Shown here piece by piece: positions 1,598-53,373 of a stretch of DNA of 56,487 nt. The stretch is from Candidatus Saccharimonadota bacterium. GTDB taxonomy: Bacteria; Patescibacteriota; Saccharimonadia; Saccharimonadales; UBA10212. The notes under the pieces are model-generated. The model saw nothing but the letters and a program-made list of their open reading frames with translations. It was not told the origin of the DNA and made no database searches. The translations under genes and the position numbers were made by a program. The stretch covers positions 94,138 to 150,624 of the forward strand of contig JACOWW010000003.1 of assembly GCA_016176605.1 (NCBI GenBank). The letters run 5' to 3'. Position 1 is the first letter of the stretch. Each line of letters opens with the position of its first letter.

Positions 1598-2338
1598 TCA
1601 AAGCTCCTTCATTAGGTCAATTATACTAGATTTACTTAATTTGTCAATATTAGAAGCGTTTTTAACATCGAACTTGCCGACTTTGGTACGGCGAAGAGCT
1701 GAAACGTAGGCGCCCGTACCGAGTTTTTGCCCAATATCTTCGGCCAGCGAGCGAATATACGTACCGCTGCTGACCTCTGTTACAAATCTCAATTTTGGAT
1801 ATTTATAGTCTGTAACCTGTAATCTGTGCACCGTAACCTGCCTGGACTTCAGCTCAGGCTTTTTGCCTGCCCTGGCTAACTTGTACGCACGCTGGCCACC
1901 GACTTTTACTGCGCTATGTGCATGCGGTACTTGTTTGATCTCCCCCACAAAACTCTCCAGTACTTTTTCGACTTTGCTTTTTGCTATTTGCTTATTGCTT
2001 TTTGCTGTTATTGGTCCCTCGGCATCCCCCGTTTTACTGCTATAACCCAGTGTTAGCTCAACCTCGTAGGTTTTATCTAGTTTACTAAACTCACTAGCCC
2101 GCTTGGTGTAGCTGCCCAAAACCAATATCAAAAGGCCGCTAGCAAGTGGGTCAAGTGTCCCCGTATGCCCAACACGCACCTTTAGTGAAGTAGAAACTAG
2201 CAATTTGGAATTAGGAATTAGCCTATTTTCTAATTGCTGATTACTAATTTCCCTGCGAAGGATGCTTCGTACCTTCGCCACGACGTCATGCGATGTCAAG
2301 CCTCTCGGTTTATCGACTAATAAAATTCCGTCCATCAT
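1598..2338 (-). CDS. truB: tRNA pseudouridine(55) synthase
   Basis: TruB isomerises U55 in the T-arm of tRNAs. The N-terminus GILLVDKPRGLTSHDVV and the catalytic loop GHTGTLDPLASG (Asp63) are intact, as is GTYIRSLAEDIG. About 247 residues with the ATG-ATG start at 2338/2335; no clear Shine-Dalgarno. Three low-complexity stretches interrupt the family pattern: residues about 30-50 (DNA 2191-2251), 110-122 (1971-2010) and 166-179 (1801-1843). Each is a translation of the word-like repeats found in nearby spacers. The first adds about 20 residues between helix 1 and the catalytic loop. The gene follows the DHH gene, as in the common nrnA-truB order. Confidence 0.93.
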   Translation of the reverse strand: MMDGILLVDKPRGLTSHDVVAKVRSILRREISNQQLENRLIPNSKLLVSTSLKVRVGHTGTLDPLASGLLILVLGSYTKRASEFSKLDKTYEVELTLGYSSKTGDAEGPITAKSNKQIAKSKVEKVLESFVGEIKQVPHAHSAVKVGGQRAYKLARAGKKPELKSRQVTVHRLQVTDYKYPKLRFVTEVSSGTYIRSLAEDIGQKLGTGAYVSALRRTKVGKFDVKNASNIDKLSKSSIIDLMKEL

Positions 2339-3904: not shown

Positions 3905-4060
3905 ATGCCTCCGGCGACGCCATTAACCGTTTTCCTTTTACCATTTACCATACATGTACCATTAACTATTAACCATTGATCACGGCTAACGGTAAACAGA
4001 TAACGCCTGGTGAACGGTGAATTGTGAACGGTGAATTGTTTCATGTTTTTTATTTTTATC
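3905..4060. repeat. Word-like repeat spacer upstream of the DHH gene
   Basis: The 281-nt gap between two divergent genes starts with imperfect reiterations of words such as 'taccattta', 'accattaac', 'gtgaacggtgaattg'. No ORF of note. The same kind of spacer recurs at 6840-6945, 19858-19979, 21780-21840, 30120-30300 and 43740-43860, each with its own local word. Confidence 0.7.
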
Positions 4061-5768: not shown

Positions 5769-6743
5769 TCAACTCCTTATATCTCTAGTATAGATCATTT
5801 TTTGGCACTTGGGGCAGATGTGGGTGCCACGGCCGGCAACGCGGATTTTTTCGATTATGGTGCCGCAGCGCGGGCAGGGTTGGTTTTCTTTTCTAAAAAC
5901 TTGGGCAAATGTCAGGTAACTGCCTTTTTTACCCTTAGCATCGACATAATTTCGATCTGTACTACCGCCTTTAGTTATGGCCATGGTTAAAATTCGTCGT
6001 AGTTCACTGTAAAGTTTAATTAGTTTGGTCCGCGGAATCTGACCAGCTGGTATGGCTGGATGGATTTTAGCCGCCCAAAGCGACTCATCGGCATAAATGT
6101 TGCCGACACCGGCTAGCACAGTCTGGTCCAAAAGTACTGCCTTAATGGCGCTTTGCCTACGTCGCAAAATGTTGTTTATGAATTTATTGACTGTAAAATC
6201 GTCTTCCAGCGGTTCGGGGCCCATTTTCTTCATAAAATCTATCTGCGGTACTTCAATAGTTGGCAGCAGGCGCATCCAGCCGAACTTACGCTGATCATTG
6301 AAGAAAAGCTTGCTGTCATCTTGAAAGTCGATCACGACTCTTGTACTTTTATCAGGCAGGTTGTTAATAAGCGAATCCGTAGGATGCCCTCCACCAAACC
6401 GCGCTTCACGCGAGGAATTAGAAAATAGAAATTGGGAATTAATATTATTTACTAGTTTCTTATTGCTATTTTCTAGTTTCTGCTCATTTTTGTTTACAAA
6501 AACGAGTTGTCCGGTCATTTTTAAGTGAATAACTAGCGAATACCCGCTGGAGAGTTCAATAATCAGCACTTTGGCCCGGCGACGGACAGATTCTATTTTG
6601 GCATTAACCATAAAGCGCGCCACGTCTGCTGGGGCGTTGGGGAATGATTTTTGCCAGTCATGCCAGACATCAGCTATAACGCGCCCGGGCAGTAATTCAC
6701 TTAGGCCGCGTTTAATAGTTTCCACTTCAGGAAGCTCAGGCAT
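5769..6743 (-). CDS. mutM: Formamidopyrimidine-DNA glycosylase
   Basis: Bifunctional glycosylase/AP lyase removing oxidised purines. The N-terminus PELPEVETIKRGL supplies the catalytic Pro2 and Glu3; HLKMTGQLV, FNDQRKFGWMRL and GVGNIYADESLW follow; the C-terminal zinc finger CPRCG...CPKC is complete. 324 residues against a usual ~275. The extra length is an Asn/Ser/Lys-rich stretch at residues about 87-110 (DNA 6416-6484), which is a word-like repeat read in frame ('tagaaaatag', 'ctagtttctta'). A -10 box 6 nt before the ATG suggests a leaderless mRNA. Confidence 0.94.
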   Translation of the reverse strand: MPELPEVETIKRGLSELLPGRVIADVWHDWQKSFPNAPADVARFMVNAKIESVRRRAKVLIIELSSGYSLVIHLKMTGQLVFVNKNEQKLENSNKKLVNNINSQFLFSNSSREARFGGGHPTDSLINNLPDKSTRVVIDFQDDSKLFFNDQRKFGWMRLLPTIEVPQIDFMKKMGPEPLEDDFTVNKFINNILRRRQSAIKAVLLDQTVLAGVGNIYADESLWAAKIHPAIPAGQIPRTKLIKLYSELRRILTMAITKGGSTDRNYVDAKGKKGSYLTFAQVFRKENQPCPRCGTIIEKIRVAGRGTHICPKCQKMIYTRDIRS

Positions 6744-13995: not shown

Positions 13996-16712
13996 AATTC
14001 GCCCCAATTCTTTCCTTGACTAATATCAACTTTGAGTTTTACAGGTAGTTTGTAGATGTTTTCCATCGTGGATTTGAGGATTTCGCCGACTTTTTTGGCG
14101 TTTTCTTTTCGGCATTCAATAAGTAGCGAGTCATGGATTTGCAGTAACATAGCCGGCTTTGCCGGAGTAATTAGTTTTTTACTAGTTGCTAATTTCTGTT
14201 TTCTAGTTTCTCCAAAATGGGAGTCAAACTCATTTTGGACTTTGACCATGGCCATCTTCATCAGATCCGCCGCTGTGCCTTGCAGTGGATGGTTGATGGC
14301 CGCGCGGTAGGCCGCTTCGCGCACCGCGAAGTTGGAGGATTTTACATCCGGCGTCGGCCGGCGTCGCCCAAGCAATGTTTCTACGTAACCCTGCTCTTCC
14401 GCCTGCTTCCGGAGTGAATCAATATACTTTTTAAGGGCCGGCCTAAGTTGGAAATACTTGGTGATAAATTCTTTGCTAGCGGCAAAATCCATGCCCGAGC
14501 TAACACTTAAACCATGCGGACCCAGACCGTACATAATGCCAAAGTTTACAGCTTTGGCGCTGTAGCGCTGGTCTTTGCTAACCTTATCCGCTGCAATGCC
14601 GTAAATCGCGGCGGCGGTTTCTACATGGATATCAGCGTCGCGGTTAAAAGCGTCTATCATACCCTTGTCGCCAGACAGCGCCGCCGCCAAGCGGATTTCG
14701 AACTGGCTGTAGTCGGCACTAACCAGCACGTTGCCCTTTTCGGCCACAAAAGCAGTACGGATATTTTTACCAAGTTCAGTCCGTATCGGTATGTTTTGCA
14801 AATTCGGGTCGCTGCTGGATAGCCGGCCGGTTTGGGCAATGGTTAGGTTAAAAGTGGTGTGCAGGCGGTTGTTTTCATCGACCATATCCGGCAGAGGATC
14901 GACATAAGTGTTTTTAAGTTTGATTGCTTCACGGTATTGGCTAATCAATTCGATAATTGGGTGCAAATCGCGCAGTTTTTCTAGCTCGCTGGCGGCTGTC
15001 GAGAGGCCGGTTTTACCTTTTTTAATCCCCTCACTTGGTAAGTTGAGTTTGGTAAACAGTACATCGGCCAGCTGTGAAGGTGAGCTGATATTAAATTCAT
15101 GGTCGGCATGGCCATAAATGTTTTGTTCGAGGTCGCTGATAGAATCTTCCAGTTGAATAGCAAACTTTTGCAGATATTTAACATCCAGCTTAATACCGCG
15201 GGTTTCCATAGCGGCTAGCACCGGAATTAGCGGCCATTCAATAGTAGAGGCTAGACGTTCGAGGTTAGACGTTCGAGCTAGCGCCATTTTTTGGGCTTCG
15301 TAAAGTTGACGGATAACGGCTATGAACTGCGCGCCATGGTCTAAAAAATCCTCTGTTGGTAAATCTTCAAACGGCAGGCCGTTGTAACCCAAGATCGTTT
15401 CAGCCAAGTCAGTCAGCGACTGGGCACGAAGCAATGGATCGATCAAGAACGCGCCGACTAGAACGTCGTGGGCAACAATCACGCCTTCGATGCCCAAGTT
15501 TTTGAGAAGTTTAATATCACTTTTGATGTCATAGCCGATAAAAGAGGTTACAGGTGACAGGTTACGGGTTACAGTATCACGGACTTTTTGAGGGTCAAGT
15601 TTGGTAAGGTCGAGGGTGTAGGATAGTTCGGCTGTGCCAATGTGCAAGACTTGCGGGTCGGCTCCTTGTTTTCCGGCCGCCCGCGAATGAACAAAGATCG
15701 GTTGCTCCCCTGTGTGAAAGGTCCGTCCTTTCACACTAAAGCTTATTTTGTTTAGTTTTTCACCCGAATCAACTAATACATGTTTTTGTAATTTTAATGC
15801 CTTACTTGCGCCTACAGCTGGTGTGCTTACTCTCATGTTTTCGGGCAAATTATTTAATAGACTTCGAAATTCCAGCTCCTGTAGTAAATTGCGGAGGTGT
15901 GAGGTGTCTAATTTGGAGCTGTCCATGGCTGGCAGATCCAATTTAACCGGCGCATCTGTCCACAGTTGGGCAATTTTTTTGCTCAAATAGGCCGACTTTT
16001 TACCAGCTTCCAATTTTTTGCGTAAAGTTTCTTTAATCACCGGCAAATGTTTATAAACTCCATCCAGAGTTTTGTATTGCTGCAGTAGCTGGGTGGCAGT
16101 TTTTTCGCCGACGCCGGGCACGCCCGGAATATTATCCGAACTATCGCCTTTTAGGGCCTTAAGGTCCAAAAATTGTTCCGGCCTAAGACCGTATTTGGCG
16201 GTAAAACTTTCCGGATGGAATTCTTCAATATTGGAAAAGCCGCGTTTTAGGGCGTAAACTTTGACGTGACCGTTTATTAGCTGTAGGGCGTCCAAATCAG
16301 AGGTAATTAGCAAGGTTTCGATATTTTTTTTACGGGCCTGGACGGCTAGGGCGCCCATAATATCGTCGGCTTCATAATCGTCCAACTCGTATAGCGGCCA
16401 ATGAAAAGCCTCCAAAAGCTCGTGCAAAATAGGGATTTGAGTATAAAAATCCGGCGGCGCCGGTTTACGGCCGGCTTTGTACTGCGGGTACATAGCCACA
16501 CGCTTTCGGATGTTGGTTTTGGGCTTGTCCCACGCTACTGCCACGTAATCGGGCTTGAGCTTTTTGATGAGTTCCAGGGCCATGGCCGCGAAACCATACA
16601 CCCCGCCGGTCGGCACGCCTTCTTTAGTCGATAGGTTCGGCATGGCGTAATAACCTCTGTAAAAAACAGATTTTCCATCTATAATTGCCAGCTTTTTCCT
16701 CGCTTCAGCCAT
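13992..16712 (-). CDS. polA: DNA polymerase I
   Basis: 906 residues. The 5' nuclease domain (1-~290) is intact: YRGYYAMPNLSTKEGVPTGG, DDYEADDIMGALA, ITSDLDALQL, GDSSDNIPGVPGVGEKTA. The 3'-5' exonuclease-like region (~300-470) has no DxE first motif, so proofreading is probably absent. The polymerase domain carries motif A DYSQFEIR (~669), motif B around NFGIMYG (~724) and motif C QIHDSLLIE (~860), where Asp is kept but the usual Glu is Ser. Four repeat-derived stretches are read in frame: 15712-15736 (V-K-G-R-T-F-H-T), 15547-15577, 15247-15281 and 14170-14212. TATAAT lies 9 nt before the ATG. Confidence 0.95.
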   Translation of the reverse strand: MAEARKKLAIIDGKSVFYRGYYAMPNLSTKEGVPTGGVYGFAAMALELIKKLKPDYVAVAWDKPKTNIRKRVAMYPQYKAGRKPAPPDFYTQIPILHELLEAFHWPLYELDDYEADDIMGALAVQARKKNIETLLITSDLDALQLINGHVKVYALKRGFSNIEEFHPESFTAKYGLRPEQFLDLKALKGDSSDNIPGVPGVGEKTATQLLQQYKTLDGVYKHLPVIKETLRKKLEAGKKSAYLSKKIAQLWTDAPVKLDLPAMDSSKLDTSHLRNLLQELEFRSLLNNLPENMRVSTPAVGASKALKLQKHVLVDSGEKLNKISFSVKGRTFHTGEQPIFVHSRAAGKQGADPQVLHIGTAELSYTLDLTKLDPQKVRDTVTRNLSPVTSFIGYDIKSDIKLLKNLGIEGVIVAHDVLVGAFLIDPLLRAQSLTDLAETILGYNGLPFEDLPTEDFLDHGAQFIAVIRQLYEAQKMALARTSNLERLASTIEWPLIPVLAAMETRGIKLDVKYLQKFAIQLEDSISDLEQNIYGHADHEFNISSPSQLADVLFTKLNLPSEGIKKGKTGLSTAASELEKLRDLHPIIELISQYREAIKLKNTYVDPLPDMVDENNRLHTTFNLTIAQTGRLSSSDPNLQNIPIRTELGKNIRTAFVAEKGNVLVSADYSQFEIRLAAALSGDKGMIDAFNRDADIHVETAAAIYGIAADKVSKDQRYSAKAVNFGIMYGLGPHGLSVSSGMDFAASKEFITKYFQLRPALKKYIDSLRKQAEEQGYVETLLGRRRPTPDVKSSNFAVREAAYRAAINHPLQGTAADLMKMAMVKVQNEFDSHFGETRKQKLATSKKLITPAKPAMLLQIHDSLLIECRKENAKKVGEILKSTMENIYKLPVKLKVDISQGKNWGEL
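15712..15736. repeat. In-frame palindrome in polA (VKGRTFHT element)
   Basis: GTGTGAAAGG-TCCGT-CCTTTCACAC, a 10-5-10 inverted repeat. On the coding strand it reads V-K-G-R-T-F-H-T. The same element, in the same frame and orientation, lies in tsaD at 49774-49796. It falls in the poorly conserved exonuclease-like region. Confidence 0.8.
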
Positions 16713-24089: not shown

Positions 24090-25712
24090 CTACATCTTTC
24101 CAGGTGCTGGGATGTTCAATATTTCAAGGCCGTTTTTTAGTACGTGGGCATAAGATTGTACAAGCTTTATCCTTTGGGCTTCGCGCGGATTGCCAACCAC
24201 GCGGTTGTTTTCATAAAAGCGGTTAAACACCTGCGCCAGTTCATACAAATATGTACAGATATGGTGCGGCATCAGTTCTACCACAGCCTTTTCTATTACT
24301 TCCGGGTATTCGCTGACTTTCCGCGCGAGATTTCTTTCGCCTGGTTCAAAAACTCCGACTTTCGACTCCTGACTTTCGACCTTCGACTTCTCCAATATGG
24401 CACGCGCTCGTGCATGCGCATATTGGAGATATGGCCCGCTGTTGCCTTCCAGGCTGACGGATTCTTCAACATCGAATATTACATCAGCTCCAAGTCGTTG
24501 TTTAAGCAACGAGTATTTTACGGCTGCAATGTAGGTTTTATCTGTAGATTCTGAATCTGGATAGCGTTTTTTGACCTCAGCCCGCACATTATCAAGCAAA
24601 GTTTTTGCGGCGAAGACATCGCCGGTACGGCTGCTCATTTTCCCAGTCGTAAGACTAACAAAGCCATGGGCTATATGCACAGTCTTGGTAGCGACTTCAG
24701 GGTTAATTTCTTTCAAGGCCGCCAACATAACCTTGAAATATTCTGCCTGTTCATGTGCAGTGATGATTAACGATTGGCTGGCATTAGGATAATCTTTGTT
24801 TTTTAGTTTTGTCAGTCCCAGGTCTTTGGTTTCATACGTCGGCAAGCCCTCTGAGTTCAAAAATACTCTGGTATGCAGTCCAACTTTTTCGCCTTTGTAA
24901 ACTACAGCACCCTCGCTTTTTTCGAAAACCTTGTCGATATTTTCTTTGACCATCGCCAGGCCAGCTTCCATGGCTTCGCTTTCCAAATAGCGTCCATTCG
25001 GGCTGTATTTAATGCCAAGCTCGCTAAAAATTTGGTCAAAATATTTAAAGCTGTGTTTTACGCCTTCGTCGTGCAATCGATTAATTTCCGTGTCGTCCTT
25101 GGCATAAATATGTTTGTTTACCTCACGGACTTGTGAAGCGGCCTGCTTGTCCTGCTCGTAGGCTTTTGCGCCTTTGGCATAATATTCTCCCAAGTCATCT
25201 TTGAGTTTGCCTGTTTCTTGGCGCATAGCCCAAATTGCTCTGGCAACATGCAGGCCGACATCGCCGTGGTAGCTTAATCGCCGGACATTTGCACCGCTGG
25301 CTTCCAAAATTCCGGCGATGCTGTCGCCGATAACGGCACTGTATAAGTGCCCAACATGCATCTCCTTAAAAGGGTTTGGGTCGCCGAATTCAGCCAATAT
25401 CTCTTTACCGGAATTCTGCTTCGGAAGTTTTTGAACGTTTTCAGTGGCCTTAGATAATGCCTTATCCGTAAGGGTGAAATTAATAAAGCCGGCCCCCGCG
25501 ACTTCGGCTTTTTCGATAGCCGGATGTTTAACGGATTCTGCCAGCTGTTTAGCAATTTGGCGCGGGCTCTTATTAAGCTTTCCGGCCAATTGCAGGGCGA
25601 TATTCGTAGAATAATCACCAAACTGTTCCTCCGGTCGCGTCAGCTCCGGTTTAATATCAACTCCAAAAAGATTTTTAGAGGCATTTTTGATTGCCTCTTT
25701 TAACTCCTGCAT
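24090..25712 (-). CDS. argS: Arginyl-tRNA synthetase
   Basis: 540 residues. The N-terminal Add1-like domain, the HIGH motif as HVGHLYSAVIGDSI, and the KMSK region GKMSSRTGDVFAAK identify a class I ArgRS; the C-terminal DALR domain ends VLKNGLEILNIPAPGKM. An insert at residues about 441-454 (DNA 24351-24392, reading KSKVESQESKV) is a repeat of 'cgaaagt' words in frame. TATATT lies exactly 6 nt before the ATG. Confidence 0.95.
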   Translation of the reverse strand: MQELKEAIKNASKNLFGVDIKPELTRPEEQFGDYSTNIALQLAGKLNKSPRQIAKQLAESVKHPAIEKAEVAGAGFINFTLTDKALSKATENVQKLPKQNSGKEILAEFGDPNPFKEMHVGHLYSAVIGDSIAGILEASGANVRRLSYHGDVGLHVARAIWAMRQETGKLKDDLGEYYAKGAKAYEQDKQAASQVREVNKHIYAKDDTEINRLHDEGVKHSFKYFDQIFSELGIKYSPNGRYLESEAMEAGLAMVKENIDKVFEKSEGAVVYKGEKVGLHTRVFLNSEGLPTYETKDLGLTKLKNKDYPNASQSLIITAHEQAEYFKVMLAALKEINPEVATKTVHIAHGFVSLTTGKMSSRTGDVFAAKTLLDNVRAEVKKRYPDSESTDKTYIAAVKYSLLKQRLGADVIFDVEESVSLEGNSGPYLQYAHARARAILEKSKVESQESKVGVFEPGERNLARKVSEYPEVIEKAVVELMPHHICTYLYELAQVFNRFYENNRVVGNPREAQRIKLVQSYAHVLKNGLEILNIPAPGKM

Positions 25713-26916: not shown

Positions 26917-27486
26917 ATGAAGTTAATGATAATTTGGGGCAGTTCAAGGACCGGACGCAAAGGCGGTATAGTAACTGATTGGGTTAAAGGTGAAGCGACT
27001 AAAGATAGCCGTTTTGAAGTTGATTTTGTTGACCTAAAGGAGCTGAACCTGCCGTTTTTTGACGAGCCTAAAAGCCCATTTATGATGCAAGGGTTAAATG
27101 AATATAGTCATCCTGAAGGCAAGGCTTGGGCCGAGCGCGTACAGACTGCCGACGCCGTCATTATTATTACGCCAGAATATAATCATGCGCCGCCCGGCGT
27201 ACTCAAAAATGCTCTGGACTGGGTTGGCAAACCATGGGTTGATAAACCTGTAGGGTTAGTCAGTTATGGCGGCGCCGTCGGTGGCGCCAGAGCTGTGGAG
27301 AAATTGCGTTCAATAACCATTGAACTGGGGTTAATCAATGTCGCGACACCGCTCCACTTTCCTTATTTTGAAGAAGCTTTTGACGCCCAGGGCCAGCCAA
27401 AGCGGCTAGACTATTACCAAGCCAATCTCAAAAAAATGCTTGACGAAATCCTCCGCCTCAGAACAGCAATGAGCAAAGAGCAATGA
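26917..27486 (+). CDS. NADPH-dependent FMN reductase family protein
   Basis: 189 residues with the flavodoxin-like pattern: MIIWGSSRTGRKGG (phosphate loop), ADAVIIITPEYNHAPPGVLK, ALDWVGKPW, GLVSYGGAVGGARA. Reduces FMN or quinone/azo substrates with NADPH. AGGAG before the ATG; 9 nt after the ArsR frame. The C-terminal RTAMSKEQ is written in a 'gagcaat/gagcaaa' word repeat that continues downstream. Confidence 0.88.
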   Translation: MKLMIIWGSSRTGRKGGIVTDWVKGEATKDSRFEVDFVDLKELNLPFFDEPKSPFMMQGLNEYSHPEGKAWAERVQTADAVIIITPEYNHAPPGVLKNALDWVGKPWVDKPVGLVSYGGAVGGARAVEKLRSITIELGLINVATPLHFPYFEEAFDAQGQPKRLDYYQANLKKMLDEILRLRTAMSKEQ

Positions 27487-27531
27487 GCAAAAAGCATGCT
27501 GTTTTCTGTTCTTTGTTCTCTGTTCATTGAC

Positions 27532-33779: not shown

Positions 33780-34012
33780 TCAGTAATTAGTAAAAAGTAA
33801 CTGGTAATTAGTATAGCCGCAGTAAATGCTAGTTTCTAGTTGCTATTTTCTGCTTTTCCAGGGTGCCACCCTGGAATGTGGTTCTGTTTGCCATTAAACT
33901 TGTGCTTTTGAAGTTAAAAATGTAAATTGAGAATTGATAATTGTTAATTGATCATTCACAGAAAACTGTTAACTGATAACTGATAACTGCTCGCTCTAAG
34001 CGAGCACGGGGG
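33780..34012. repeat. Repeat- and hairpin-rich spacer upstream of the 34017 gene
   Basis: Words 'taattagtaaaaagtaactgg', palindrome CCAGGGTG-C-CACCCTGG region at 33858-33875, 'ctgataactg' words, and hairpin GCTCGCT-CTA-AGCGAGC just before the start. GGGGGTGG may serve as ribosome site. No ORF. Confidence 0.5.
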
Positions 34013-49011: not shown

Positions 49012-50232
49012 GTGAAAGTCTTAGGAATAGAGACCTCTTGTGATGAAACTGCGGCGGCTGTAGTTGAAGATGGTTACAAATTACTCTCAAATGTTGTGGC
49101 CAGCTCGGTTGACCTGCACGCCGCCTACGGCGGCGTGGTGCCGGAAATCGCCGCCCGGTCGCACATCGAAAGCATCCTGCCAGTAATAGACCAAGCATTA
49201 ATAGATGCTTTCGCAGAAAATAGCAATCAGAAATTAGAAAATAGCAAAAAGACAAAGCTAATTCCCAATTCCCAGTTGCTAATTCCTCAATCTGACGACA
49301 TATGGTCGCAGATTGATGCCATTGCCGTAACTCAAGGCCCCGGTCTTATCGGCAGTCTGCTGATAGGTGTCCTGACCGCTCGGACGTTAGCTATAGCTAA
49401 GCAAAAACCCTTGTACGCTATCAACCACCTCGAAGCACATGTCTATGCCGCCTTCCTCACTTCGTTCGGAAATGAGCAAAAAGCAAAAAGCAAAAAGCAA
49501 AAAACATTAGAAATAAACTATTTATTCCCGAAAAAACAACCTGAATTTCCTCTGTTAGCTCTAATTATTTCCGGTGGTCATACCCAAATTGTGCTCTTCA
49601 ATAATCACTTTGATTACAAAATGCTGGGCCAAACAATGGATGACGCGGTTGGTGAAGCTTATGATAAAGTAGCCAAAATGCTAGGACTATCCTACCCCGG
49701 CGGCCCTTCTATCGCCAAAACGGCAAAAAAAGGTAATGCGTACTCTTTCAATTTTCCCAAAGCCAAATTCGATGTGAAAGGACGGACCTTTCACACTAAT
49801 GCTTATCCATTTAGTTTTTCCGGCTTAAAAACAGCCGTTTTAAGGGCCGCTCAAGATGTGACTGGCCATGATTACACCTTCCCTTCTACAAAACTGCCAG
49901 AAGCCTTAAATAAAGCCCAGAAAGCTGATATCGCCGCTAGTTTCCAGCGCACAGTTGTTGAAACCTTAGTAGATGCACTAAAAAAGGCCGAAGACGAATT
50001 CCAGCCCAAGTCTATCGTTATCGCCGGCGGCGTTGCTGCTAATCAAGAACTTAGAAAAGTGGCTTCCGAACAGCTCTCTAGCAAAGTTATTTATCCTGAT
50101 ATCAAACTTTGCACAGATAACGCCGCCATGGTAGCTACCCTTGGCTGCTTCAAAGCTAAATATAAACAGCCTAAAGCCAACTCTTATTCTCTAGAGGTAG
50201 CCCCAAGCCTCAAAATGCTTACCTCTCACTAA
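49012..50232 (+). CDS. tsaD: tRNA N6-threonylcarbamoyladenosine synthase subunit TsaD
   Basis: 406 residues, GTG start. GIETSCDETAAAVV, HAAYGGVVPEIAARSHIE, ISGGHTQIV, DDAVGEAYDKVAKMLGL, SGLKTAV and the final IVIAGGVAANQELRK are the ASKHA-fold motifs. Forms t6A37 with TsaB/TsaC/TsaE. Longer than the usual ~340 because of three in-frame repeat stretches: residues ~66-92 (49207-49285), ~154-167 (49471-49510) and the VKGRTFHT palindrome (49774-49796). TACAAT lies exactly 6 nt before the GTG. Confidence 0.95.
   Translation: MKVLGIETSCDETAAAVVEDGYKLLSNVVASSVDLHAAYGGVVPEIAARSHIESILPVIDQALIDAFAENSNQKLENSKKTKLIPNSQLLIPQSDDIWSQIDAIAVTQGPGLIGSLLIGVLTARTLAIAKQKPLYAINHLEAHVYAAFLTSFGNEQKAKSKKQKTLEINYLFPKKQPEFPLLALIISGGHTQIVLFNNHFDYKMLGQTMDDAVGEAYDKVAKMLGLSYPGGPSIAKTAKKGNAYSFNFPKAKFDVKGRTFHTNAYPFSFSGLKTAVLRAAQDVTGHDYTFPSTKLPEALNKAQKADIAASFQRTVVETLVDALKKAEDEFQPKSIVIAGGVAANQELRKVASEQLSSKVIYPDIKLCTDNAAMVATLGCFKAKYKQPKANSYSLEVAPSLKMLTSH
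49774..49796. repeat. In-frame palindrome in tsaD (VKGRTFHT element)
   Basis: GTGAAAGG-ACGGA-CCTTTCAC then AC. Same peptide and frame as the polA copy at 15712-15736. Sits between two conserved blocks of the second ASKHA half. Confidence 0.8.
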
Positions 50233-50655
50233 AACCCGAGCAGAGTAGTGCGCCTGAGGCGGATTACGGCCTTCGACTAGGCTCAGGCCGCCCTGAGCGA
50301 GCAAAGCGAGTCGAATAGGCGGAGCATCGAGTTTTTAGTGATGGGGTAGTAATTTCTACAATATTTAAGCACAGGAGTCAAGGTTGCTCGTCTGTCGAAT
50401 CGGGGTTATGCTTAAACCAAACAAACATTTACCCGCCGATCCGCCTCAGGCGGATGGCGGGCAAGGGTGGTAAAAATAAAAGCCAGTATTAGGTACTTCC
50501 TGTCTCATGGCAGGTAGTTTTGAGGGTCCCCTTTCGCGTGAAAGGCTAGTGTTTTAGTGCTAGTTTTTTTTTGTAAAAGCTATCAAATTAACAGCAGGCA
50601 GTTAACAGTAGTCAGTTTAAATTAAAACAGAAGTTTCTAAACTGTTAGCTGTAAG
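50233..50655. repeat. Palindrome-rich spacer between tsaD and valS
   Basis: About 420 nt without a gene. It has TCGACT...AGTCGA arms (50266-50315) containing a 21-mer shared with 11232-11252, a GCCTGAGGCGGAT / ATCCGCCTCAGGC pair (50253 and 50438-50452) with a hairpin CCGATCCGCC-TCA-GGCGGATGG, CCTTTCGCGTGAAAGG (50530-50545), and 'cagttaacag' words before valS. Confidence 0.6.
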
Positions 50656-50679: not shown

Positions 50680-53373
50680 ATGGGATTACCGAAGATTTAT
50701 GAGGCCTCTAAATACGAATCTGGTATCTATAAACTGTGGGAAAAGAGCCGGGTATTTATCGCCGACCCTAATAGTTCTAAACCGCACTTTTCGATGGCTA
50801 TGCCGCCGCCCAACGAAACAGGGACGCTGCACGTTGGCCATGCGCTTTTTTTGACACTACAAGACATCATTGCCCGTCATGAACGCCAAAGGGGCAAAGA
50901 CGTATTGTGGCTGCCCGGAACAGATCACGCTGCCCTAGCCACCAACGCCATCATCGAAAAGAAACTGGCAGAGCAGGGGACCGATAAACACACCATAGGA
51001 CGAGAAGAGTTTATCCGCCAGGTTAAGGTGTTTGTCGGTAATAGCCGCGACACTATAAACTCCCAAATACGGGCCATAGGTGCCAGCTGTGACTGGAGCA
51101 GGGGGCGTTACACCTTAGACGATGCTCTCAACCGCCTCGTCAACGAAACCTTTGTAAAAATGTACAATGACGGGCTGATTTACAGGGGTCATCGCATCGT
51201 AAACTGGGATCCGAATCTAGAAACTACCGTATCTGACGACGAGGTGGTCTATAAAGAACAGAAAGCGCCCTTTTACACCTTACAGTACGGTCCTTTTAAA
51301 ATCGGTACGGCCCGTCCAGAGACTAAATTCGGCGACAAATACGTGGTGATGCACCCCGATGATAAGCGCTATGTGAGGTACATGCACGGCGAGACATTTG
51401 AAGCTGATTGGATAAACGGCAAAGTGACAGCCACCATTATCAAGGACGAAGCCGTCGATCCCTCTTTCGGAACAGGGGTCATGACCATTACCCCGTGGCA
51501 CGACCGCACTGACTTTGAGATTGCTGAAAGGCACGGACTAGAGAAGGAACAGATCATTGGCTTTGATGGGCGTCTGCTGCCAATTGCCCATGAATTCGCC
51601 GGACAGACAATTGATGAAGCACGCCCCAAAATTGTCAAGAAACTACGCCACAAAGGTTTGTTGATCAAGGAGGAAGAATATACCCATAATGTGGCCCTAA
51701 ATGATCGCGGTAAAGGTGTTATTGAGCCGCAAATCAAACTGCAGTGGTTCGTTGATGTTAACCGGCCGGCTGTTGAGTGGAAAGGCCAGCTGCGTTCCCT
51801 GAAGGAAGTTATGCGCGCCGTTATCGAGGACGGTGATATTCAGATTGTGCCCAAGCGCTTTGAGAAAATTTATTACCACTGGATTGATAACTTGCGCGAC
51901 TGGTGCATCAGCCGCCAAATCTGGTGGGGACACCGCGTGCCTGTATGGTACAGGCACGCAAAGATCAAAAATCAAAGATCAAAGATCAAAAATGAGGAGA
52001 CATATGTTGGGGTGGTGCCTCCGGAAGAGCAGGGGTGGGAACAGGATCCAGATACGCTTGACACCTGGTTTTCTTCGGCGCTTTGGACCTGGAGCACGTT
52101 GGTAGACCAAGACTTGGCAAAGGATTATTCCCTGTCTCTGGAAGACTTGTTGGCCAAAAGTTTGGACTACAGAACCTACCATCCAACAGATGTTATGGAG
52201 ACTGGTTGGGACATCCTCTTCTTTTGGGTAGCGCGCATGATTTTGGCTACCACTTACGTCACCGGCGAAGTGCCGTTTAAGACTGTTTACTTACACGGTT
52301 TGGTGCGCACCGAGCATGGCAAAAAGATGAGCAAAAGTGATCCGGACAGCATTGTTGACCCAATGGAAGTCATCCCGCAATATGGCACTGATGCTTTGCG
52401 CTTGGCGCTGGTGGCTGGCACTTCGGCAGGCGCTGATCAGCGGCTAGGGAAGGCCAAAATCGTGGCTAATCGTAACTTTGCTAACAAGCTTTGGAACATC
52501 GCCCGCTACATTGACGACCTACGGGTACGACCCGTAGAGGGCGAAGAAAACAACAGAGGTAGAAGAAGTCTACGGGTCGTACCCGTAGGTCGAGAGATGA
52601 TGCCAAAATCAGTTGCGGATCATTGGATACTTAACAAGTTAAGTATTTCTACAGCTGTTATTAACAAAGCTCTGGACAGCTTCCGTTTTAGTGAAGCATA
52701 TGAACTTTTGTACCACTTTGTCTGGGACGATTTTGCCGACTGGTATGTGGAAGCCAGCAAGGTAGAACCGAATGTGGGCATGTTGAACCACGTGCTGGAA
52801 AGCACGCTCAAATTAGCCCACCCGTTCGCGCCGTTTATTACCGAAACCATCTGGCAGAATATGGGCAAAAAGAGCTTGCTGGCAGCGGAACTCTGGCCCG
52901 AAATCACCAATGCCGACAAAGCTCAGGCGCGGCAATTTGAGGAACTTAAAAAAATCATTACGGAAGCCAGGCAAATTTCCGTCAACGTTGGTGTTAGCAA
53001 GCCGTGGTTATTCAATAAAAACTCTAATCTGATAGAGCAGAATAAAGCACTGATTGAACGTTTAGGGCGTTTAGGAGGTGTTGAAACTAGTGCAAAACTA
53101 GGCACAGGAGTGCAACTTCACAGCTCTAAAACTCCTGCATGGCTCGCAATTGATATTAAGGATCTCAAAAGACATTCTAAGAAGTTAGAAGAGCAGGTGA
53201 GTAATCAGGAAAGCCTGATAAAGATGCTGGAGGGCAGGCTGGCTAACAAAGCTTACGTCGCCCGCGCCCCTAAGAAGCTCGTCGAAGAAACCAAATTCCA
53301 ATTGGCCGAAGAGAAGTTCAGACTTGAGACATTGAACTCCGAGCTAAAAACCTTCGAAAAATCCCTAACTTAG
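50680..53373 (+). CDS. valS: Valyl-tRNA synthetase
   Basis: 897 residues from the ATG at 50680; TATACT lies 8 nt upstream, which would leave a 1-2 nt leader, so I prefer this start to 50656. HIGH region PPNETGTLHVGHALFLT, editing domain with GTARPETKFGDKYVVMHPDD, WWGHRVPVWY, KMSKS as GKKMSKSDPDSI, and a C-terminal coiled coil (KKLEEQVSNQESLIKMLEGR). Two in-frame inserts: residues ~427-438 ('gatcaaa' words, 51959-51993) and ~613-637 (inverted repeat 52516-52591). Confidence 0.96.
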   Translation: MGLPKIYEASKYESGIYKLWEKSRVFIADPNSSKPHFSMAMPPPNETGTLHVGHALFLTLQDIIARHERQRGKDVLWLPGTDHAALATNAIIEKKLAEQGTDKHTIGREEFIRQVKVFVGNSRDTINSQIRAIGASCDWSRGRYTLDDALNRLVNETFVKMYNDGLIYRGHRIVNWDPNLETTVSDDEVVYKEQKAPFYTLQYGPFKIGTARPETKFGDKYVVMHPDDKRYVRYMHGETFEADWINGKVTATIIKDEAVDPSFGTGVMTITPWHDRTDFEIAERHGLEKEQIIGFDGRLLPIAHEFAGQTIDEARPKIVKKLRHKGLLIKEEEYTHNVALNDRGKGVIEPQIKLQWFVDVNRPAVEWKGQLRSLKEVMRAVIEDGDIQIVPKRFEKIYYHWIDNLRDWCISRQIWWGHRVPVWYRHAKIKNQRSKIKNEETYVGVVPPEEQGWEQDPDTLDTWFSSALWTWSTLVDQDLAKDYSLSLEDLLAKSLDYRTYHPTDVMETGWDILFFWVARMILATTYVTGEVPFKTVYLHGLVRTEHGKKMSKSDPDSIVDPMEVIPQYGTDALRLALVAGTSAGADQRLGKAKIVANRNFANKLWNIARYIDDLRVRPVEGEENNRGRRSLRVVPVGREMMPKSVADHWILNKLSISTAVINKALDSFRFSEAYELLYHFVWDDFADWYVEASKVEPNVGMLNHVLESTLKLAHPFAPFITETIWQNMGKKSLLAAELWPEITNADKAQARQFEELKKIITEARQISVNVGVSKPWLFNKNSNLIEQNKALIERLGRLGGVETSAKLGTGVQLHSSKTPAWLAIDIKDLKRHSKKLEEQVSNQESLIKMLEGRLANKAYVARAPKKLVEETKFQLAEEKFRLETLNSELKTFEKSLT
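52516..52591. repeat. In-frame 22-bp inverted repeat in valS
   Basis: A 22-nt arm at 52516-52537 (GACCTACGGGTACGACCC...) and its perfect complement at 52570-52591, loop 32 nt. Each arm is itself palindromic (CTACGGGT/ACCCGTAG). Adds about 25 residues rich in Arg and Val after RYIDD. Confidence 0.85.

Follow-up and report, generated by a model that had tools for sequence, protein, structure and literature searches.

Heptamer Arrays in the Window

The window, i.e., the whole stretch of 56,487 nucleotides that was analyzed, corresponds to C3:94138-150624 of a draft genome (G000) that comprises 728 kb in 7 contigs and is 89% complete. The closest valS relatives in a collection of named sequences (59-77% identity) mostly carry the label Saccharibacteria, and the organism therefore most likely belongs to the Saccharibacteria (Patescibacteria). 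A sequence-only reading had proposed that repeats are read in frame in truB, mutM, polA, argS, tsaD, and valS, and that they are of the same kind as the repeats that fill spacers. Both proposals were verified. The named sites (11/11) are inside open frames, and the gene arrays resemble the spacer arrays in kind; many relatives also have them in genes that are conserved and essential. The features are the following:

1810..1840, minus strand: truB, GTAACCT-type array, residues 169-179, length-neutral; G002 and G011 have the same word there
1973..2009, minus strand: truB, AAAAAGC-type array, residues 112-124, length unchanged versus relatives
2182..2251, minus strand: truB, TAGxAAx heptamer hairpin, residues 32-55 (EISNQQLENRLIPNSKLLVSTSLK), an insertion
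2255..2278, no strand assigned: palindrome adjoining the truB hairpin, 7-bp stem
3920..4035, no strand assigned: heptamer hairpin between genes (GGTxAAx/CCATT), representing a second dispersed family
6413..6484, minus strand: mutM, TAGxAAx hairpin, residues 87-110, an insertion with flanking palindromes at 6400-6412 and 6483-6506
14170..14212, minus strand: polA, TAGxAAx array, residues 834-848, an insertion with flanking palindromes at 14153-14165 and 14212-14238
15247..15281, minus strand: polA, period-14 (7x2) array, residues 478-489; segment length 22 in 30/30 orthologues
15543..15577, minus strand: polA, GTAACCT-type array, residues 379-390; G002 has nearly the same array
24351..24392, minus strand: argS, imperfect heptamer array, residues 441-454, below the strict threshold, followed by a palindrome at 24390-24428
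27462..27529, no strand assigned: inverted heptamer array pair (AGCAAxG / CxTTGTT type), overlapping the end of ORF 26917-27486
33917..33995, no strand assigned: spacer arrays including TAACTGA, a word known from Beggiatoaceae and cyanobacteria
49207..49287, plus strand: tsaD, TAGxAAx hairpin, residues 66-92, an insertion with flanking palindromes at 49194-49209 and 49287-49316
49466..49514, plus strand: tsaD, AAAAAGC array, residues 152-168, single-word direct array
51935..51959, plus strand: perfect palindrome adjoining the valS array, 11-bp stem, z -8.4
51959..51998, plus strand: valS, CAAAGAT array, period 7, in frame

Period and Abundance of the Arrays

All 11 named sites (11/11) have a period of 7. 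The identity at lag 7 was 0.57-0.89, and the highest value among lags 4-6 and 8-11 was 0.29-0.50. The words quoted in the sequence-only reading had 7 or 10 letters; the repeats are real, but the period is 7. With a strict threshold the window contained 21 lag-7 clusters, versus 0-3 at lags 4-6 and 8-13, and first-order Markov surrogates of the window (n = 8) contained none. With a looser threshold, 29 lag-7 clusters were found in the window and 0-1 in the surrogates (n = 8). The whole draft contained 131 strict lag-7 clusters, versus 0-9 at each of the lags 4-6 and 8-13, while the 83 clusters at lag 14 and the 15 clusters at lag 21 were expected because the period is 7. The looser threshold yielded 200 arrays in the whole draft. 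Two 50-kb stretches of E. coli K-12 (100 kb) had no lag-7 clusters at the same threshold. In 80 named loci from Saccharibacteria and others, mostly Patescibacteria, there were 70 clusters at lag 7 versus 1-8 at lags 4-6 and 8-13; the period-7 pattern extends beyond one species. The arrays consist of tandem 7-nt units beyond chance, as do heptanucleotide simple sequence repeats.

A general transient misalignment by 7 bases in coding DNA was rejected. Outside the arrays the values for lag 7 (0.2468) and lag 8 (0.2469) were nearly the same, and there was no residual excess. In spacers outside the arrays a slight excess was seen at lag 7 (0.2738 versus 0.2590-0.2697 at other lags). Period-25 clusters were also present in G000, and 18 of these 21 were on contig C7. 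Two period-25 rows detected with TRF (L104; one 20-kb stretch inspected) were composed of heptamer-like words.

Unit Anatomy and Hairpins

The units are imperfect, and in 32% of 148 arrays at least 80% of the mismatches are concentrated in two columns, versus 8% for shuffled arrays. In the largest family (unit TAGxAAx), TAG and AA hardly change, and the variation is at the x positions. Of 45 pairs of neighboring arrays (at most 60 bp apart), 26 matched each other in inverted orientation (random pairs, 9.6%) and 2 in direct orientation (random pairs, 10.3%). Therefore, many elements are hairpins, about 60-75 bases long, the arms of which consist of heptamers; for some arrays there is no inverted partner. 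Two features had been overlooked in the sequence-only reading: the TAG copies form inverted pairs, and perfect palindromes directly adjoin several sites. Palindromes with a stem score of at least 8 were found beside gene arrays in 29.6% of 54 cases; at 1033 control spots within these genes the share was 2.4%. After folding as single-stranded DNA, six of ten gene elements were better than shuffles (z -2.4 to -8.4), and the other four folded no better than shuffles (z -0.1 to -1.9). A palindrome in frame in a conserved gene, as in the Rickettsia elements, is present at the tsaD, mutM, truB, and polA 3' sites.

In hairpins of the TAG family (e.g., C7:251785-251851) the arms pair at the fixed TAG and AA, and one variable position is mostly mismatched. 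At this position C or A predominates in the 5' arm and A in the 3' arm.

Sharing of Words

The earlier claim that each site uses its own word was only partly borne out, since three words each serve several sites. TAGxAAx is common to truB 2182-2251, mutM 6416-6484, polA 14170-14212, and tsaD 49207-49285, GTAACCT to truB 1810-1840 and polA 15547-15577, and AAAAAGC to truB 1973-2009 and tsaD 49471-49510. The vocabulary of G000 comprises about 90 consensus words. At a similarity of 0.75, words were shared by 2.8% of the G000 array pairs that are more than 2 kb apart, versus 0.28% after column permutation; this test left out only pairs within 2 kb, and duplicated segments may contribute to the difference. 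Sharing between G000 and other genomes was weaker (0.65% versus 0.23% permuted). The number of arrays with a similar word elsewhere (180/204) was dropped, because that many comparisons would reach it by chance, and the permuted-word test was used instead.

The TAG words are dispersed over 39 places, some of them in genes and in frame. The identity of the TAG arms was 0.724/0.693 in register and 0.706/0.665 when slid by 7. This register test argues against copying of whole elements in the TAG family, except for a subgroup on C7, the members of which have common flanks and seem to be ordinary copies. With the same exception, the elements are not one sequence family that aligns end to end, as those of Rickettsia do. 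The shared words together with the poor register indicate that the word is shared and the sequence of the element mostly is not, which argues against purely local slippage and also against a classical element with fixed ends.

The Same Loops in Relatives

For each of the six genes 30 orthologues were compared, G000 included. The 180 orthologous ORFs contained 54 lag-7 arrays (8 of them in G000), versus 4 at lags 5, 6, and 8-13 pooled. The array sites coincide between genera, and the words mostly differ. The mutM loop had arrays in 8 of 30 genomes, with words of the TAGxAAx, AAAAAGC, AGCTAAA, and GAGTCTC types and others. Among the 30 orthologues each, arrays were found at truB 27-58 in 8, at polA 372-398 in 6, at tsaD 62-102 in 5, and in argS in 4, while the argS array of G000 is a weaker one. 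The same word at the same site was seen for tsaD in G000 and G006, for polA in G000 and G002, for mutM in G000 and G008 as well as in G002 and G006, and at the truB 3' site in G000, G002, and G011.

At several sites the carriers have longer loops. The mutM loop had 39-55 residues in the 8 carriers versus 25-29 in the 22 others, the tsaD 62-102 loop 40-42 versus 9-26, and polA 826-858 had 23-25 in 3 carriers versus 13-14 in 20 of 27 others. The truB 27-58 loop had 28-38 residues in carriers versus 13-24, with one array-free exception of 70; this exception, in truB of G014 (L237), is a 70-residue segment without heptamers. At truB 106-130 and 163-186, polA 372-398 and 474-495, and argS 444-472 the length was independent of arrays, and thus arrays replaced sequence there. 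A further long loop was seen in valS of G002 (L172), which at the array site has 132 residues versus 19-32 in the other 29 orthologues and is not a heptamer array.

The mutM genes of G002 and G006 are 87% identical outside the array. The AAAAAGC array of G006 contains an in-frame palindrome of about 30 bases that is missing from the array of G002. In five chosen pairs of shared-word arrays, pooled by hand, the third bases of unchanged codons agreed in 59/68 cases, versus about 832/1515 outside; two truB pairs (L217/L218 and L217/L221), the words of which differ, were left out of the pool and had 1/3 each. This agreement suggests homogenization or constraint at the DNA level, although the base choice inside the arrays is narrow.

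Arrays inside Genes

The arrays avoid genes: 34 of 200 array midpoints were in crude gene calls, which cover 86% of the bases. Four copies of the TAG arm in genes (truB, tsaD, C6:39060, and C7:237273) are in one phase and read LIPNS[QKE]LL[VI]. A plain TAG repeat would lead to TAA at the sixth codon, and the four copies have CAA, CAG, AAA, or GAA instead. These are three different base changes at one position, which speaks for selection after insertion.

The sequence-only reading had found the tolerance in essential proteins striking. The arrays are indeed present in essential genes, but there is an ordinary reason, namely that the insert sites are permissive, because they are absent from solved homologues and, in TsaD, modeled with low confidence. 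TruB residues 30-56 (versus 1sgv), MutM residues 83-131 (versus 1l1t), and TsaD residues 60-99 and 151-178 (versus 6nak) were unaligned, and these regions as well as PolA ~834-848, where the array coincides with a gap in the alignment with Taq polymerase, lack an equivalent in the solved homologues that aligned best. At the ArgS, ValS, and other TruB sites the alignments to solved homologues show small gaps at most. In an AlphaFold2 model of TsaD (36 sequences) the mean pLDDT was 88, with values of 50-59 for residues 71-90 and 64-72 for residues 151-170. Low values were also obtained for residues 251-260 (58) and for the end of the chain (61).

A role as terminators was rejected, as convergent spacers are not enriched (14 arrays observed versus 22.8 expected). 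The words of spacer arrays were richer in stop codons (open-frame fraction 0.343 versus 0.427 permuted; the lowest of 100 replicate means was 0.387), an excess of low weight because the arrays are not independent.

Search for Enzymes

A dedicated mobilizer was searched for as Y1 transposase and reverse transcriptase domains, and neither was found in G000. The Y1 transposase domain (PF01797), the gene for which characterizes REP/RAYT systems, was absent from the 89% complete draft and present in 18 of 41 genomes (G000 and G001-G040). The reverse transcriptase domain (PF00078), as expected for a diversity-generating retroelement or telomerase-like synthesis, was absent from the G000 draft and present in 4 of 41 genomes. 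The MutS_V domain (PF00488) was found in none of the 41 genomes, and the control search was positive in 11 of 14 well-known genomes.

Origin of the Arrays

Based on the period, the inverted arms, the sharing of words beyond chance, the reuse of the same sites by mostly different words, and the open frames, the best explanation, held with middling confidence, is that heptamer words able to form hairpins spread in trans, undergo reshuffling by steps of 7 bases, and are filtered in genes. Template switching or fold-back synthesis in the course of replication or repair would carry copies of words or hairpins to new places. The arrays would then expand, contract, and homogenize by 7-base slips, and the register would be lost thereby. 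In genes, selection would retain only variants that are in frame and free of stop codons, in flexible loops or replaceable segments. The absence of MutS may allow slipped or mismatched intermediates to persist; it does not account for the step of seven. The length-neutral sites need replacement, which is beyond simple slippage, and the sharing of words may stem partly from selection for function or from duplicated segments. A bolder version, which is quite unlikely, would be that the seven-base word itself is the replicating unit. Each genome would maintain a set of heptamers in which some positions are fixed and others free (TAGxAAx, GGTxAAx). A putative synthesis, templated or by fold-back, that advances in steps of 7 bases would write these words throughout the genome, also into essential genes, in the form of direct arrays or inverted arms, and would be a bacterial counterpart of word synthesis as at telomeres.

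The sequence-only reading had named local slippage or templated duplication as the mechanism. If slippage alone were at work, a local 7-base seed would be extended by a polymerase that favors 7-base slips, and selection would filter the arrays in genes. The exact period, the missing MutS, and single-word direct arrays like tsaD 49466-49514 fit this, and according to PMC4679880 and PMC4692102 heptamers are the commonest long repeats of many bacteria, with slippage as the proposed cause. However, purely local slippage is doubtful as the whole story because words recur in trans, neighboring arrays are inverted, and some arrays are length-neutral; the palindromes beside the arrays and the lack of a lag-7 excess in coding DNA outside the arrays also argue against it. 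A classical mobile palindromic element of the Rickettsia or MITE/REP type, moved by a transposase, could have produced the 39 dispersed TAG places with in-frame copies in genes and the 30-base palindrome that distinguishes the mutM arrays of G006 and G002, and Y1 transposase domains do occur in 18 of the 41 genomes. This is nevertheless unlikely, as the array-rich draft (89% complete) itself has no such domain, the register is hardly conserved, there are many words instead of one family, and no fixed ends or target duplications were recognized in flanks inspected by eye.

It is very unlikely that the arrays are functional sites under selection (RNA or DNA structures, regulator binding sites, or stop cassettes) with the gene copies as by-products. 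The division of the unit into two variable positions and five steadier ones, the conserved third bases in shared-word arrays, and the somewhat stop-rich spacer words would be in line with function, but relatives carry different words at the same site, and neither gene starts nor convergent ends are preferred. Chance low complexity or an assembly error might be considered for a draft in 7 contigs, but is practically ruled out for the class as a whole by the arrays in open frames of relatives' independent assemblies and by their absence from the Markov surrogates and E. coli at the same threshold.

Comparison with Known Systems

Heptamer repeats and in-frame palindromes in Rickettsia genes are already known. 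The combination of heptamer hairpins with the reuse of the same essential-gene loops by different words was not found in the open-licence literature searched, including that on Patescibacteria, Saccharibacteria, and the Candidate Phyla Radiation.

Direct repeats of the heptamer TAACTGA were described for Beggiatoaceae, Cyanobacteria, and some Bacteroidetes (MacGregor 2015, PMC4679880), and TAACTGA was also found in cyanobacterial plasmids. They are likewise imperfectly explained dispersed heptamer arrays, and TAACTGA itself is present in G000. In contrast to the one dominant word mostly upstream of starts reported there, about 90 words, hairpin arms, and essential genes are involved here. Long heptanucleotide simple sequence repeats with the G-rich unit GGGAATC are known from Xanthomonas and Nostoc (PMC4692102), and polymerase slippage has been proposed for heptamer repeats (Mrazek 2007, as cited in PMC4692102 and PMC4679880). 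In PMC4692102 the unit is also 7, the repeats are enriched outside genes, and slippage is proposed, but those repeats are G-rich and quadruplex-capable, whereas the arrays described here are mostly AT-rich, imperfect, and often inverted. The palindromic elements of Rickettsia (Ogata 2000, via the review PMC2229807) are fused in frame into conserved protein genes. They share with the present elements the in-frame palindromes and the apparent tolerance; they form families of 105-146 bp, whereas the elements described here have about 60-75 bp, are built from heptamers, differ in word by genome, and hardly conserve the register.

Although bacterial heptamer repeats have long been noticed, the size of their unit, seven, has lacked an explanation. 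The loops of tsaD, truB, mutM, polA, argS, and valS, which are filled with different words across genera, offer a natural assay by which the step size, the spreading of words, and the contribution of hairpins can be tested. In small genomes that lack MutS, short repeats reshape essential proteins, and insertions in the loops of Patescibacteria proteins may derive from repeats rather than serve a function.

REP and REPIN elements are short dispersed palindromes associated with Y1 transposases. The present elements are also short and dispersed, and GC-rich palindromes that look like REPs are found beside or inside some arrays; unlike in REP/REPIN systems, no Y1 transposase domain was found in G000, and the arms are heptamer arrays. 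In the window, GC-rich REP-like palindromes (CCTTCGACTAGGCTCAGG and its partner) are located at 50256-50330 in the spacer after tsaD, and a palindrome resembling them is present inside the mutM array of G006 (L276).
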